Virus record (IMG/VR): IMGVR_UViG_3300020119_000019 | Coordinates: 1-44,422 of that record | From: a virus | Length of the DNA: 44,422 nucleotides | Strand: one strand, 5' to 3' | Notes under the pieces: model-generated | The model's database searches: none | What the model was told of the DNA's origin: nothing | The model's input: only the letters and a program-made list of their open reading frames with translations | In this document: in pieces, positions 27,127 through 33,802 of the stretch | Position numbering within the stretch: position 1 is the first letter of the stretch | Layout: each line of letters opens with the position of its first letter | Made by a program: the position numbers and the translations under genes

Positions 27127-27191
27127 GCGCAATCGACAAAATTTTTATCGGATGTACGATCGTCGGTACGTTTAGCCCTTCGGCGGTTCCA

Positions 27192-27409
27192 TAGTATAGA
27201 ATAGTAGGGGGAATATGATGCTCAAACCCTTGGAAATCTGCCAAATAGTATAAATAGTATAATAGTATATAAGGGGTAGGGGAATTTTCGTTATCCGGTT
27301 AGGTCCAGGTCGGTCCGATATCACTCACTACCCTACTATCGTACTATTCGTACTATTTGGCGGTTTTCTGCGGGTTTCAGCCTACTACGGGCCATACTAC
27401 CCCATACTA
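27192..27409. repeat. 218-bp dyad-symmetric element with TAGTA boxes; candidate origin
   Basis: The 344-base gap between 27069 and 27415 holds this element. Five TAGTA boxes lie on the left (27192, 27202, 27246, 27255, 27263) and five mirrored TACTA boxes on the right (ending at 27409, 27399, 27355, 27346, 27338), all positioned symmetrically around 27300.5. The inner arms, 27239-27267 and 27362-27334, are 29 bases with 24 identities when one is reverse-complemented. An eleventh box (27383-27387) is outside the mirror. The region is AT-rich compared with the rest and adjoins the primase-helicase gene. Clustered iteron-like boxes beside a replication gene suggest an origin; an operator array is the alternative. 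Confidence 0.65.
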
Positions 27410-27414
27410 TCCGG

Positions 27415-29787
27415 TTAAACGAATGTTGAAGCGCGAGCAATGACGAACGCTCTAGCGGTTGTTCCGAACATTCCTTCCACTTGCTTTCGCGGCAATTCGC
27501 GAAGATCGTCGGCATCTAGCAAATGCTGAAGCGTGCGTTTAATCGCATTTGTCGAACCTGCTTTATCGGTACGGAACGACGCGCGTTGCATAAGGGCTTT
27601 CGAGATAGCCGAGTACGGATATACGCCCGCCGCGTGCCAGTTTCCAGCGATGCCGTATTTCGACGCTTCCTGTCCTGTCGTATCCTTCGCCCAACGCGAT
27701 ATAACTTTGATCATTTCGCCGATTTGCTTTTGCTCACCAGCGCCAAAGACTGCCGATCCGATTTCGCCGTTCTGAAAGCGGCTAATGACTGCGACGATAT
27801 CGCGAGCGACAAGATCGCAAGCCCAACGGGCCGCATCGATATCAATGCAGGGATCGTACGGGTATTGTCCGACGGCGACCAGGGCGGCAAGCTTCAGCGC
27901 CTTGACGTGCGCGCGGTTCCACATATGCCGAACGACTTCGTTTGCCTGCCCGTCGTTAATGTGGGCATCTGCAAACTTGTCGAAATCGTCTAGCAGCTTT
28001 TCGGCGTATGGATCGGCTCGCACCTGAACGACGCCGCCCGACGACATAACCTGTTTGACGTGCGCGGTTAGTTCGGTGACCATATCGATTAGGGCGAACG
28101 ACGGTTTCGCATATGCCGCGCTTTTGGACATGGCGGGCCGCTTGCCCTGATATTCGATCGTTAGGAAGCGAGGAAGGAAGCCGTCGGCAATCATGCCTTC
28201 GTCTAGGGCTTCGTAAAACTTTTCGGGCGTGCTTTCGCCGATTAGGGTGAACGACGGGGCGGCGATCGGCGGCGTGTTCTTATCCTTATCCGAATACGCC
28301 ATCGGGTTTAGGATGTTGCCGTGACCGGACTTGTTAAACAGGTCCATTACGACTTTCTTAACGCCGATTTCGTTTGAGTTTGCGAACGGGCTCGCCATCT
28401 GCTTTAGCCGCATCCCCCATTCGCCTTGTACGCTGAACACGCAAGGTTGACGGGCGAGCCATTTGATAAGCGCCGCGTCCGATCGTGTTTCGCCCGGTCC
28501 GACGAAATCGGCAATTACGGGGCACGTCGGCAGACACGCGCTAATCAGCTTCGATACGCCCGCGTTGATGGCTTCTTTACCCGTGCCCGTTGGGGCGAGG
28601 CAAAGGACGTACATATTCAGGCCAGTTGCCGATATGTTGAACGCCTTGCCCACAATACCTGCAACAAGGCCGATCGCGCCGACTAGGGCGATTTCACGCA
28701 CCGGACGCGGCGCGGCTTCGTAAATGAAGTTCGCGACTTCCCCTAGCAAGCCTGGGGGTAAAATTATGTCGGACGGGTTGACGCCTTCAGGGCCTTGTGC
28801 GACTTGTGGCGTCGCCTGAAGCGCGGTCCTGCCCGGTTCCGCATCGGTCGGGGCGGTTGGTCCTTCCACCGCCCCGTTACCGCCCAGGAACCCCGGCAAT
28901 TCAATCTGTTCTTCCGGCTGCAACAAGTCGTCGAACTGGACCTTCAAGCCTTCGATATCGATTTCGGGCAACTGCCGATCGAACGACTTGTTCACCATGT
29001 ACGAAACGTAATCGTCGCGCTTCGCTTTGTCGCGCTCGCCAAGCTTGGATGCGCGGAAGATGCGCGCGATTTGATCGCGGTTTTGCGTATAGAATGCGAC
29101 GATATCGACAAGCGCGAAATCGGCTTCAGATTGCGAGGCGTAAAGGCTTTCCCAATCGCCTTCGTATAGCGCGCGGAACTTGTCGCCGTTCAGGGCAGAC
29201 AGCGCCTTGCCGATAACGCTTGCGTCGTCTTCCTTCTGTTCGGCGTTGCCGCCGTATTGATGGATCGAAGCTGGCCCGCCCATTTGATGCCAAAGCAACA
29301 TTGCGGCATTTTGGCATTCGATAATCGGCGCATCGCGGTAAACGTCGCCGGTCATGGTCATGAAGCGAAGGTTCGAATAGATTTCGATTTGCGCCCGCTT
29401 GCGACCGCGCGGAATGCTGCCCTTACCGATGATATGCAAGCCGGTGCCCGATGGCGAGCGTTCGGCGTACGATTGGATTTCGTGGAATATGCGCTGTTGA
29501 CGCTGAAAGATTTCGTCGTCGCCCTTGGGGTCGTCAAGGTCGATAAAAACGTAAGGATCGTCGTCGGTAAGGACGAACCCGATACCGCTGAAGGCGCCGC
29601 TTTCGAACGCGCGCAAGGCGTCTTCGAATGTGCCCCATGTCGATGGCTTGTCGACGGCAGCCTTAGCGCCCGCGACGATAGGCGAGTACGGAACCTTCGT
29701 CGGTTTCGGCCCGCCTTGATCCTCTAGCCGCCACACAATCCATTGACGGTAAAAGCGCATTTCGCTTGGAATTGCATCGAACGCCAT
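27415..29787 (-). CDS. Primase-polymerase/DUF3987 helicase
   Basis: The 790-residue protein begins MAFDAIPSEMRFYRQWIVWR. The N-terminal half is a bifunctional primase-polymerase-like domain with WR at the front, GFVLTDDDPYVFIDLDDPKG near residue 80 (acidic residues of the active site) and SGTGLHIIGKG. The C-terminal half is a DUF3987-type helicase/ATPase with a Walker A motif APTGTGKEAI near residue 395-402. It would prime and unwind DNA at the fork. The start at 29787 uses TAATG overlap with the HTH gene; an upstream start (29814) is within that gene. The stop lies at the edge of the dyad element. Confidence 0.8.
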   Translation of the reverse strand: MAFDAIPSEMRFYRQWIVWRLEDQGGPKPTKVPYSPIVAGAKAAVDKPSTWGTFEDALRAFESGAFSGIGFVLTDDDPYVFIDLDDPKGDDEIFQRQQRIFHEIQSYAERSPSGTGLHIIGKGSIPRGRKRAQIEIYSNLRFMTMTGDVYRDAPIIECQNAAMLLWHQMGGPASIHQYGGNAEQKEDDASVIGKALSALNGDKFRALYEGDWESLYASQSEADFALVDIVAFYTQNRDQIARIFRASKLGERDKAKRDDYVSYMVNKSFDRQLPEIDIEGLKVQFDDLLQPEEQIELPGFLGGNGAVEGPTAPTDAEPGRTALQATPQVAQGPEGVNPSDIILPPGLLGEVANFIYEAAPRPVREIALVGAIGLVAGIVGKAFNISATGLNMYVLCLAPTGTGKEAINAGVSKLISACLPTCPVIADFVGPGETRSDAALIKWLARQPCVFSVQGEWGMRLKQMASPFANSNEIGVKKVVMDLFNKSGHGNILNPMAYSDKDKNTPPIAAPSFTLIGESTPEKFYEALDEGMIADGFLPRFLTIEYQGKRPAMSKSAAYAKPSFALIDMVTELTAHVKQVMSSGGVVQVRADPYAEKLLDDFDKFADAHINDGQANEVVRHMWNRAHVKALKLAALVAVGQYPYDPCIDIDAARWACDLVARDIVAVISRFQNGEIGSAVFGAGEQKQIGEMIKVISRWAKDTTGQEASKYGIAGNWHAAGVYPYSAISKALMQRASFRTDKAGSTNAIKRTLQHLLDADDLRELPRKQVEGMFGTTARAFVIARASTFV

Positions 29788-29996
29788 TAAACACGCCCCG
29801 CTGCAATAAGCCAATCGTGCAAACGCTGGACCTTTACGACACTAGGTTCGGCAATCCTTCCGCGCCGAAAGCGCGAAAGCCAAGCTTCATCCAAGCCGCT
29901 AAGTTCGGCGATTTCCTTCGCCGTTCGTTCGGTTAACGCGTGATTGTAAAGGGCAATCGTCCGCTCTAATAGCGGAACGCCTGGGGCGGGGTGCAT
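29787..29996 (-). CDS. Small helix-turn-helix protein
   Basis: From the ATG at 29996 the product has 69 residues, starting MHPAPGVPLLERTIALYNHA. It contains TAKEIAELSGLDEAWLSRFR and RGRIAEPSVVKVQRLHDWLI, the helix-turn-helix of Cro/CI-like proteins with the turn at about residues 24-45. GAAAGG lies seven bases upstream of this start, and I prefer it to the longer start at 30137. As the first gene of the leftward operon, facing a rightward promoter in the shared control region, it may regulate both. Its stop overlaps the primase start by one base. Confidence 0.7.
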   Translation of the reverse strand: MHPAPGVPLLERTIALYNHALTERTAKEIAELSGLDEAWLSRFRRGRIAEPSVVKVQRLHDWLIAAGRV

Positions 29997-30880: not shown

Positions 30881-31057
30881 ATGAACCGCCTTCAACTTCT
30901 CGAACGCGTAAATGAACTTAACGTTAAAGCCGTTCGCGACGCCAAGCCCGATCGATATTGGACAGTCGTTGTTCTTTATAACGCTGTCATTTGGCGATCG
31001 ACTGCCGAAGCGCCAACCGGCGAACTGTTCGAAATCGTAAAGGACTATAAGGCATGA
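30881..31057 (+). CDS. Small hypothetical protein, 58 residues
   Basis: The protein begins MNRLQLLERVNELNVKAVRD and has PDRYWTVVVLYNAVIWR in the middle. The start at 30881 comes directly after the long hairpin; the Shine-Dalgarno (GAAAG) is weak. Its end overlaps the next start (ATGA). No family recognised. Confidence 0.6.
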   Translation: MNRLQLLERVNELNVKAVRDAKPDRYWTVVVLYNAVIWRSTAEAPTGELFEIVKDYKA

Positions 31058-32028
31058 ACGCTTTTGCCGACGCCCTAGGCGCGAACAATCCGGGTTTCGG
31101 GCAGCCCACAAACAACGCGGCAGCGTTTGGCGGCTTCGCTCCCCAGGCGCCGGGCAAGAGCGCGCTTGACACGATCGAAAGCGTAACGCGGCAAGTCGGC
31201 GCACGTATCGTCGTGTCGGGCGTTGAAAAGATCGGCAAGACAACGCTCGCTTGCGGTGCGCCTAGTGCCCTGTTGATCCCGCTTGAAATGGGTTACGGAT
31301 CAATCGTCGTTCCGAAGACGAAGCAAATCGAAACATTTGACGAATTGCTTGCGACGGTCGACGATATCAAGCGCCGTGCGCAGGCGGGGCAATTCCCCTT
31401 CCGATCGATCGTACTCGATAGCGCCACGGCGACCGAACAGCGCATTCACGAAAAGACGATTGCGAGCGACAAGGATTACAAGCCGGGCAATCCCAAGGGC
31501 GTTACAATGGAAAGCGCGCTAGGCGGATACGGCAAGGCGTACGGCTATGCGAACGAACAATTCGGCAAGCTGTTGACCGCACTTGACGAACTGGCGTTTT
31601 ACGGCGGCATTAACGTAATCTTCACCGCGCATGTTTTCGCGTCGAAGGCGATCGATCCCGCGTTCGGCGAATATGACGCTTGGGATTTGCTCTTGCATTC
31701 GCCGAAGAATAATAAGAACTACGGCAAACGCGAAATGTTGACGCAATGGGCGGATATGATCGCGTTTGTTCATGAACCAATGTTCATTACGAAGGGCGAT
31801 CAAATTCAACAGGCTACTTCAATGAACCAAGGGCGAGTTGCGGGCGTTGTTCGCAAGCCGTCGTATGTCGCAGGCAACCGCTTCGGCATATCCGGCGAAA
31901 TCCCGCTTCCAACGGCTCCCCAGGGTACGCCTTCGAATTTGATTGCAGGACATTCGTGGAACCAAATCGCCAACGCCGTAAACGTCGCGACGGGCGGGGC
32001 AATCGATCTTTTCAATCGCGACGTATAA
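31054..32028 (+). CDS. Sak4-like RecA-fold ATPase
   Basis: The 324-residue protein begins MNAFADALGANNPGFGQPTN. It has a Walker A motif GVEKIGKTT (about residues 55-63) and a Walker B strand SIVLDSA (about 112-118), then an HVFASK-type segment, in the order of phage AAA_24/Sak4-like proteins. These single-domain RecA-like ATPases promote strand annealing and recombination, usually next to an SSB. The low-complexity N-terminal 40 residues (Asn/Gly/Phe-rich) are outside the fold. The ATG at 31054 overlaps the upstream stop. Confidence 0.75.
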   Translation: MNAFADALGANNPGFGQPTNNAAAFGGFAPQAPGKSALDTIESVTRQVGARIVVSGVEKIGKTTLACGAPSALLIPLEMGYGSIVVPKTKQIETFDELLATVDDIKRRAQAGQFPFRSIVLDSATATEQRIHEKTIASDKDYKPGNPKGVTMESALGGYGKAYGYANEQFGKLLTALDELAFYGGINVIFTAHVFASKAIDPAFGEYDAWDLLLHSPKNNKNYGKREMLTQWADMIAFVHEPMFITKGDQIQQATSMNQGRVAGVVRKPSYVAGNRFGISGEIPLPTAPQGTPSNLIAGHSWNQIANAVNVATGGAIDLFNRDV

Positions 32029-32043: not shown

Positions 32044-32766
32044 ATGCCTGCATTCCAGTTTGATAGCAACGGCATCGATCCGTCGTACGGCGGCGGCTCG
32101 CAACTGCCCGTCGGCAAGCATCCCGTCGTTATTGTGGGAAGCGAACTAAAGCCGACCAAGGACGGAACCGGCGGTTTTCTCGCACTTACGCTTGAAGCGA
32201 TCGACGGTCCGGCGAAGGGCGTTCAGCATATCGACCGCCTGAACCTTCACAACAAGAACCCCGACACGGTTCGTATCGCCAACGGGCAGCTTTCGGCGTA
32301 TTGCCACGTAACCGGCGTCTTCCGCTTCCAGGCAACCGAAGAACTGCACGGCAAGCCGTTCGTCGTCGACATTGCCCCCGATCCCGACGAACGCAACGCC
32401 AACCGTACGAAGATTGGCAAGCTGTTCGATATCAACGGCAACGAACCGAACAAGGCCGGTGCGGGCGCACAGCAGGGCGGCGGCTTCGGCGGCGGTTCGG
32501 CAGGCTTCGGCGGTGCGAGCGGTGCGCAACAGGGCGGGCAGCCCCAGGGCCAGCAGAGCGGCGGTTTCCAGCCGGGCGCCGGTGCTGCGCAGGGCGGGCA
32601 GCCCCAGGGCGGCAATCCCCAGGGCGGGCAGGCAACCGGCGGCGGTTGGGGCGCGCAAGGCGGCGGGGCCGGTGCCCAGGGCGGCGGCGCGGCAGCGGGC
32701 GGCAATGGTCAACAGGCTTGGTCGCAGGGTTCCGGCGGCGGGGCGCCCGGTTGGGGCCAGCGTTAA
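32044..32766 (+). CDS. DUF669-type ssDNA-binding protein with long Gly/Gln tail
   Basis: The protein has 240 residues. The first 130 residues fit DUF669 phage ssDNA-binding proteins: MPAFQFDSNGIDPSYGGGSQ, LPVGKHPVVIVGSELKPTKD, later ELHGKPFVVDI. The remaining 100 residues are Gly, Gln, Ala and Pro rich with repeats like QGGQPQG, and end in WGQR rather than the acidic tip of bacterial SSB. The neighbour is a Sak4-like ATPase, the usual partner. AAAGGAAG is upstream of the start. The tail is unusually long, and a role in condensate-like replication sites is speculation. Confidence 0.8.
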   Translation: MPAFQFDSNGIDPSYGGGSQLPVGKHPVVIVGSELKPTKDGTGGFLALTLEAIDGPAKGVQHIDRLNLHNKNPDTVRIANGQLSAYCHVTGVFRFQATEELHGKPFVVDIAPDPDERNANRTKIGKLFDINGNEPNKAGAGAQQGGGFGGGSAGFGGASGAQQGGQPQGQQSGGFQPGAGAAQGGQPQGGNPQGGQATGGGWGAQGGGAGAQGGGAAAGGNGQQAWSQGSGGGAPGWGQR

Positions 32767-32775
32767 GCGTCGATC

Positions 32776-32797
32776 GGCAGGGGCTTCGGTCCCTGCC
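32776..32797 (+). terminator. UUCG hairpin after the SSB gene
   Basis: GGCAGGGGC and GTCCCTGCC form a nine-base stem with a TTCG loop, followed by CTTTG. The T-run is weak, so it is probably a partial terminator or a 3'-end stabiliser. Confidence 0.45.
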
Positions 32798-32804
32798 CTT
32801 TGAT

Positions 32805-32882
32805 GGATCATGCCGGGCGTTTTCGTTACGACCGTGCGTAATCGAACTGTGACGACTGCGGTTCGACTAACCGGCATGATCC
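32805..32882 (+). ncRNA. Candidate structured RNA: three-way junction
   Basis: A perfect 12-base inverted repeat, GGATCATGCCGG (32805-32816) and CCGGCATGATCC (32871-32882), closes two internal hairpins: TTACG/CGTAA (32826-32841) and TCGAAC/GTTCGA (32842-32866). It fits a three-way junction. It lies between the SSB and nuclease genes, and the AAAGGGG ribosome binding site of the nuclease begins four bases after the closing stem, so folding could affect translation. It lacks tRNA features (no T-stem, no encoded CCA, 12-bp acceptor). I cannot assign a class. Confidence 0.5.
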
Positions 32883-32899
32883 TTCAAAGGGGATTTGAC

Positions 32900-33802
32900 G
32901 TGTTCGACTTGTCGTTTCAAACGGAACGCGAAAGGCTCGCCGCGACTATTAGCGCGGAAGTCGAAGCCGATAGCGTTGCTGAATACGAAGAAGGGCCGCG
33001 CTGGCATCTTGGCGGTTCCGAAATTGGCAAGCCGTGCGAAATGCAGCTTTGGGCGGGCTTTCGTTGGCTTCGGCAGGAAAAGCACGACGGGCGAAAGCAT
33101 CGGCTGTTTAAGCGCGGTCATTACGAAGAACCGCAATTTATTAAGCGGCTTCGTCGCATCGGCTTTGAAGTTTTCGAGTTCGACGCGGATGGCAAACAAT
33201 ACAAAATCAGCGGGCATAAGGGGCATTACGGCGGTTCCCTTGACGGTATCGCAATTGCTCCCGCGCGCTATGGCTTGCCGGGGCCGTTGCTTGTCGAATT
33301 CAAAACGCATAACGAAAAGTCGTTTGCCAAACTTGCCGGGCCTATCACTTCGAAATGGCCAGTATTAACGCGCAACACGGCGAAGGCTGAAGGTATGCGC
33401 AAGTCGAAGCCGGTGCATTTCTCGCAAATGTCGTCATACGGGCAGGCGTACGCTTTGCCGTACGGGCTGTATTGCGCAGTCAACAAGGAAACTGACGAAC
33501 TTTATTTTGAAATCATTCAGCTTGATTTCAACCACGGCGTTCGCTTGTACGAAAAAGCGGGCCGCGTGATCTTCAGCCAAACGCCCCCCGCGAAGATCGC
33601 GCAAAGCGCCGCGTTCGGCGAATGCAAGCTTTGTCACTATTCGCCGATATGCCATCACGGGGCCGCGCCCGAAGTCAATTGCCGAAGCTGCGAACACGCT
33701 TCGCCCGTCGACGGGGGCGAGTGGCATTGTCGCATCTTCGACGGCATTATTCAGCGCGAGTTAGTCCCCCAGGGTTGCCCACAATGGCGCCGGATCGTAT
33801 GA
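32900..33802 (+). CDS. PD-(D/E)XK nuclease with cysteine clusters
   Basis: From a GTG at 32900, with AAAGGGG eight bases upstream, the product has 300 residues (starting MFDLSFQTERERLAATISAE). It contains HYGGSLDGIA and LLVEFKTHNEKS, the Asp and E-x-K of the PD-(D/E)XK fold. The second half has CKLCHYSPIC and then CRSCEHASP, WHC and GCPQWR: cysteines that may bind a metal cluster as in Cas4-like or AddB-like nucleases. It would work with the SSB and helicase in recombination. A longer reading to 32810 overlaps the structured RNA and is less likely. Confidence 0.75.
   Translation: MFDLSFQTERERLAATISAEVEADSVAEYEEGPRWHLGGSEIGKPCEMQLWAGFRWLRQEKHDGRKHRLFKRGHYEEPQFIKRLRRIGFEVFEFDADGKQYKISGHKGHYGGSLDGIAIAPARYGLPGPLLVEFKTHNEKSFAKLAGPITSKWPVLTRNTAKAEGMRKSKPVHFSQMSSYGQAYALPYGLYCAVNKETDELYFEIIQLDFNHGVRLYEKAGRVIFSQTPPAKIAQSAAFGECKLCHYSPICHHGAAPEVNCRSCEHASPVDGGEWHCRIFDGIIQRELVPQGCPQWRRIV

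Follow-up and report, generated by a model that had tools for sequence, protein, structure and literature searches.

A structured element at positions 32805 to 32882 of the analyzed 44,422-nt stretch of viral DNA (IMG/VR record IMGVR_UViG_3300020119_000019; hereafter, the window) is confirmed as real. It is under selection for pairing and lies between the 3′ hairpin of a single-strand DNA-binding protein (SSB) gene and the ribosome-binding site of a downstream exonuclease gene. The slot immediately behind the SSB gene varies among phages: at least four RNA types (A to D, with A in the window) occur there, sometimes tRNAs, and in some phages it is empty. We read the element as an exchangeable structured-RNA cassette. 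Because the commonest build hides the Shine-Dalgarno sequence (SD) of the next gene in a long stem, cleavage would part the SSB and exonuclease mRNAs; such an SD-hiding stem with cleavage is the best explanation that we can offer, although we give it somewhat less than an even chance.

The features of the locus are listed in Table 1. The SSB gene of the window matches Pfam DUF669 (31.3 bits; cutoff, 21) and phrog_6015, single strand DNA binding protein (E = 8e−52).

Table 1. Coordinates of features at the window locus and of type D cores in other phage stretches
Feature	Position	Strand	Remark
AAA_24/Sak4-like annealing ATPase gene	31054..32028	+	operon context upstream of SSB
SSB gene	32044..32766	+	DUF669-type single-strand DNA-binding protein, Gly/Gln-rich tail
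GC hairpin	32776..32797	+	9 bp, TTCG loop, weak U-tract (CTTTGATG); 10 nt past SSB stop codon
Anti-SD arm	32796..32803	+	partner 32884-32891
U of U·U mismatch	32804	+	partner 32883
P1 5′ arm	32805..32816	+	partner 32871-32882
P2 hairpin, type A consensus	32817..32839	+	32817-32820 with 32836-32839
P3 hairpin	32842..32866	+	invariant ACGACTG at 32852-32858
P1 3′ arm	32871..32882	+	
SD-side arm of outer helix, TCAAAGGG	32884..32891	+	
Shine-Dalgarno AAAGGGG	32886..32892	+	nuclease gene
Cas4-domain exonuclease gene	32900..33802	+	GTG start; phrog_1990, E = 4e−88
Type D core, L026	3080		
Type D core, L029	2684		
Type D core, L030	3200		
Type D core, L053	3015		

The original prediction described a perfect 12-base inverted repeat enclosing hairpins of 5 and 6 bp, and these letters are present as described. 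The repeat consists of GGATCATGCCGG (32805-32816) and CCGGCATGATCC (32871-32882), and the two hairpins inside it are TTACG/CGTAA (32826-32830/32837-32841) and TCGAAC/GTTCGA (32842-32847/32861-32866). It is the longest perfect inverted repeat of the 133-nt gap. A length of 12 bp was reached by none of 2,000 dinucleotide shuffles of the gap (shuffle mean, 6.2) and, in 133-nt frames taken every 25 nt across the whole window, at the element only. The region 32800-32900 folds with −42 kcal/mol (z = −4.7), and 0 of 200 shuffles folded equally well. By repeat search, the full arms (32796-32816/32871-32891) are 21 nt long and 95% complementary, and this long and almost continuous intergenic double helix is the observed part of a putative RNase III processing site. 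Beyond a single T·T mismatch (32804/32883), the stem continues into the SD as CCCTTTGA/TCAAAGGG, and the outer arm holds six SD bases (AAAGGG of AAAGGGG). The SD starts at 32886 and the GTG is at 32900; the SD, which the original prediction placed after the closing stem, lies partly within the 21-nt arm. Pairing of the SD fits the riboregulator that had been suggested. Positions 32796-32797 are common to the GC hairpin and the outer helix, which makes their pairings alternatives, here over 2 nt only. Four of the 8 nt after the GC hairpin are T, and no intrinsic terminator was predicted on the + strand of 32600-32960.

Evidence for selection on the pairing comes from near relatives. Three of them (L004 to L006; nuclease 98% identical) have the GC hairpin and the SD as in the window and a different allele of the element, while L007 carries the window allele. 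Between the window and L088 (the same contig as L005), 18 of 69 aligned element sites differ (26%), in addition to a 9-nt gap, against 38 of 900 sites in the nuclease gene, and the element differences show no strong coding bias. The outer helix of L088 changes in step (GAT/TTC to GTC/GAC). A more distant relative, L091, has a nuclease 76% identical to that of the window. The window shows all the features by which we define type A, namely the P1-P2-P3 junction, the ACGACTG loop, and covariation. The type A set comprises 3 distinct sequences, window included, and its alignment and helices, like those of types B and C, were picked by us after the folds were seen. In P1 of this set, two-sided changes are seen in 5 of the 12 pairs, and 97.2% of cells are paired (7 of 500 shuffles as high). 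RNAalifold, applied to the 3 distinct sequences, predicted P1, P2, and P3; 9 of the 26 pairs changed on both sides and were kept, and 7 of the 26 contain one broken cell. Such uncompensated breaks, named beforehand as evidence against a selected RNA, occur in 1 of 36 P1 cells (C·A in L088) and as single cells in 6 of the 14 P2 and P3 pairs. The selected three-way junction is supported in that compensatory change keeps P1-P2-P3, but not in all of its three nested helices: conservation extends to the enclosing stem and to the second hairpin, whereas the 5-bp hairpin (32826-32841) is allele-specific, is absent in L088, and competes with the consensus P2. Elsewhere in the window, the segment 33807-34016 between the exonuclease and helicase genes is absent in L004 to L007 (alignment break). 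In another relative with a 70% identical nuclease, a U-tailed branched hairpin (L092 1880-2003) directly follows the SSB stop codon, the GC hairpin being absent; it is a candidate for another RNA form or a terminator.

The other types share the position of the element and differ in their cores. Type B has P1 ends UAAY/RUUG (CAGC/GCUG in L240), the P2 loop GUUCCGCGNGUUCCG, and a P3 of GUGY/GCAC or GCAU. In its 4 sequences, all 80 cells are paired, two-sided changes affect 13 of the 21 pairs (a level reached by 0 of 500 shuffles), and about 30 of the 42 columns enclosed by the P1 arms are invariant, as counted by eye. Type C consists of a helix NNG/CNN, an internal loop GUAAU/GGUCNAUG, and then P2. 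Its 8 sequences show two-sided changes in 6 of 8 pairs (0 of 500 shuffles reached the covariation score) and strict conservation of 12 of 13 internal-loop positions, and the type C covariance model (R2) matched L013, which was outside the training set (E = 8e−4). The type D core, GAAAGCGGATGC ... GCAGCGAGTA, was found in L026/L028, L029, L030, and L053 behind DUF669 SSB genes. The window matched neither the type B (R1) nor the type C covariance model. Outside type B itself, the highest-ranking match to R1 is the type A element of L091 (1903-1983; same ends, E = 0.27), and types A and B may be distant kin. When 398 bacterial genomes were scanned with R1, the one hit (E = 0.0017) lay in coding-looking sequence with no SSB gene in view and was rejected as false. 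tRNAs occupy the slot in Sphingomonas phage Kimi (tRNA-Gln), L083 (tRNA-Leu), and L067 (Rfam tRNA). In Kimi, the tRNA-Gln (L059 2257-2330) lies between a type B RNA and the exonuclease gene and is missing from the annotation listed for that stretch. A terminator-like hairpin stands alone in the slot in 10 of 11 cultured-phage regions, as well as in L188, L190 to L193, L196, L198 to L201, L203, and L204; in the eleventh cultured-phage region, that of Pavpe01, a repeat-rich frame seems to run on beyond the annotated SSB end.

The association of the slot with SSB genes emerged from pattern scans for types B and C that were blind to gene positions. The type C pattern gave 8 of 17 stretches with core helices (7 distinct sequences), the other 9 being dropped for failing the helix descriptor, and the type B pattern gave the full core in 3 of 65 stretches. 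All 11 core-bearing stretches lie directly 3′ of an SSB-type gene, which is of the DUF669 type (by tblastn or Pfam), gp2.5-like (in L172), or of the L184 family. The L184-family gene is probably an SSB, judging from its predicted fold: the model (pLDDT, 93.9) matches DUF669 proteins (E = 2.9e−8) and the ssDNA-binding PrgE (E = 1e−4), and the profile comparison with DUF669 is weak. The SSB of L240 is DUF669 by Pfam, and its alignment-free fold has a pLDDT of 46.8. A search of 30 whole records found one strong element in 18 (which include two near-identical pairs), none in 12, and two types in 0. The single elements lie after the SSB gene, in the sense of its transcription; weak matches elsewhere were seen in W01, W02, and W04 (E = 0.04 to 0.61). 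Because the downstream genes differ, the association is with SSB and not with a regulated gene.

Closely related phages differ in what the slot holds. L014 (type B) and L016 (type C) group with strong support in the nuclease tree, their nucleases being 90% identical, and L187 (type B) and L188 (empty) group with strong support in the SSB tree. Given these sister groupings, the slot changes or loses its type more rapidly than the genes on either side diverge, and sister phages that carry B, carry C, or lack an element provide a natural experiment that makes the function testable. We consider it possible, yet with less than an even chance, that the slot behind SSB in many phages is a dedicated cassette site in which structured RNAs that are unrelated and change fast (at least four new families) and tRNAs replace one another. 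This reading includes the slot as an RNA counterpart of accessory anti-defence gene islands, with type A of the window as one accessory RNA.

How the stem might work is suggested by its flanks. In 20 elements (3 of type A, 4 of B, 9 of C, and 4 unclassified: L009, L012, L058, and L060), flanks outside P1 pair with their own partner at a mean of −13.4 kcal/mol versus −8.4 kcal/mol with swapped partners (0 of 5,000 permutations as low). Taken singly, 13 elements have own flanks that stand out, no more than 1 of their 19 swaps being as good, and a U·U mismatch at the junction is present in 11 of the 20, a count that ignores kinship, many of them being kin. The 8 nt after the GC hairpin contain on average 2.7 T in filled and 4.4 T in empty slots (n = 20 and 19; P = 0.003, ignoring kinship). 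We propose that the element acts as RNA within the SSB-exonuclease transcript, where the folded stem would hide the exonuclease SD, so that SSB would be made abundantly and nuclease sparingly from the polycistronic message. Cleavage within the long double-stranded stem, for which precedent exists, would separate two mRNAs; the cutter would most likely be host RNase III, or else a factor recruited by the type-specific core. The SSB mRNA would then end in a protective GC hairpin, the exonuclease mRNA would begin near a freed SD, and the conserved cores of A, B, C, and D would be interchangeable recognition modules on a common stem. If the element is such a processing junction, it explains separate expression of SSB and exonuclease within one operon. 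The compensatory changes in A, B, and C, the preference for own flanks with the concerted change in L088, the presence of one element of one type per record after SSB in its transcription sense, and the weaker U-tracts of filled slots all argue for it. Against it stand the 7 of 20 elements with no clear own-flank helix (L091, L059, L187, L176, L184, L016, and L009), the Kimi tRNA between element and next gene, a further terminator-like hairpin after the element in L240, and the varying downstream genes. Moreover, a simple SD-hiding hairpin needs no conserved cores, and in the MFE fold of the window only AAAG of the SD is paired, with GGG left open.

Several known systems resemble parts of this arrangement. 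T7-type RNase III processing sites are intergenic double-stranded stems in polycistronic phage mRNA. As there, the upstream message could end up with a 3′ hairpin; by contrast, the RNAs here have conserved cores that fall into several unrelated types, are exchanged between sisters, and are tied to SSB genes, and their cleavage is presumed. The RAGATH concept refers to sets of different ribozymes that share phage gene neighbourhoods, and the slot likewise has different small structured RNAs at equivalent places, except that no known ribozyme class matches. The translational operator of T4 and RB69 gene 32 acts on gene 32 itself and is bound by gp32 (PMC535899); like the RNAs described here, it is a structured RNA tied to a phage SSB gene whose sequence diverges while its structure stays, but the RNA here lies 3′ of SSB and is a putative SSB target at most. 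The STAXI motif, described as repeated pseudoknots, is another candidate RNA whose neighbouring genes encode DNA-handling proteins, SSB among them (PMC2864571), whereas the element here has no Rfam match. The Rfam comparison that had been proposed yielded no family: at gathering thresholds, Rfam 15 found only tRNAs in the window and the A to D loci, and in E-value mode, types A to D gave only sub-threshold matches, mostly to microRNA models. By blastn against phages, A and B elements (the latter from L059 and L187) gave chance-like matches only, and C elements gave none. Among the titles and abstracts listed, which cover few subscription papers, no RNA slot behind SSB was named. Structured RNAs between phage genes are known as a kind, and at least four candidates without a match in Rfam 15 (types A to D) are all tied to one gene position.

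A serious rival to the SD-hiding model, though a somewhat less probable one, is an accessory RNA acting in trans, for which the slot would be a landing place for small RNA genes (tRNAs and A to D) excised from the SSB transcript. As part of this reading, the RNA would bind or mimic some component of the host; it might, for instance, be a decoy that counters a defence system. Such a role would explain both exchange and fast change. It accounts better than processing does for the tRNA neighbours in Kimi, L083, and L067 and for the exchange in the two sister pairs, and the strict conservation of the B and C cores also speaks for it. It leaves the SD pairing unexplained, however, as well as the closing stems, which are kept paired beyond the cores. 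The two may both hold, if an RNA excised from an SD-hiding stem also acts in trans. Should accessory RNAs indeed reside in the slot, RNA counter-defence could be sought there.

The remaining readings are weaker. The constant association with SSB-type genes of different families could mean that the core is a binding site through which the SSB controls translation of its own gene or of the neighbour, as T4 gp32 does on its mRNA, and the T4 and RB69 operators differ in sequence and are similar in structure (PMC535899). We regard this reading as improbable, since the element is 3′ of SSB and not in its leader, and close relatives have cores of unrelated sequence, or none. Small conserved cores in variable stems, with different types at one site, would suit a new ribozyme or riboswitch class; there is, however, no Rfam match, closing stems of 12 to 24 bp seem more stable than a ligand switch would allow, and cutting an apical loop would presumably leave the SD unreleased, so that we regard such a class as quite improbable. 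A coding role, in which the nuclease would be extended N-terminally from ATG 32810, is scarcely credible, and so is a chance hairpin. The frame from that ATG is open in the window and in L088, but L091 has an in-frame stop, relatives of the exonuclease start at about the same residue as the GTG, and differences between the window and L088 fall 5/4/9 by codon position (23 sites each) versus 1/3/34 in the nuclease (300 each). A DNA element, in which the single-strand hairpin would serve as a replication or primosome site, is suggested by the neighbouring SSB and recombination genes, and a comparison of G·T with A·C mismatches as an RNA-versus-DNA test gave 7 versus 5, which favours neither. We consider it as doubtful as a ribozyme, given the fixed orientation with SD pairing and a better origin candidate in the inverted region 27191-27410. 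This candidate replication origin is an imperfect inverted repeat with 77-nt arms (73%), rich in TAGTA/TACTAT repeats; it adjoins the minus-strand gene 27415-29814, and its minus-strand fold has a z score of −6.25.
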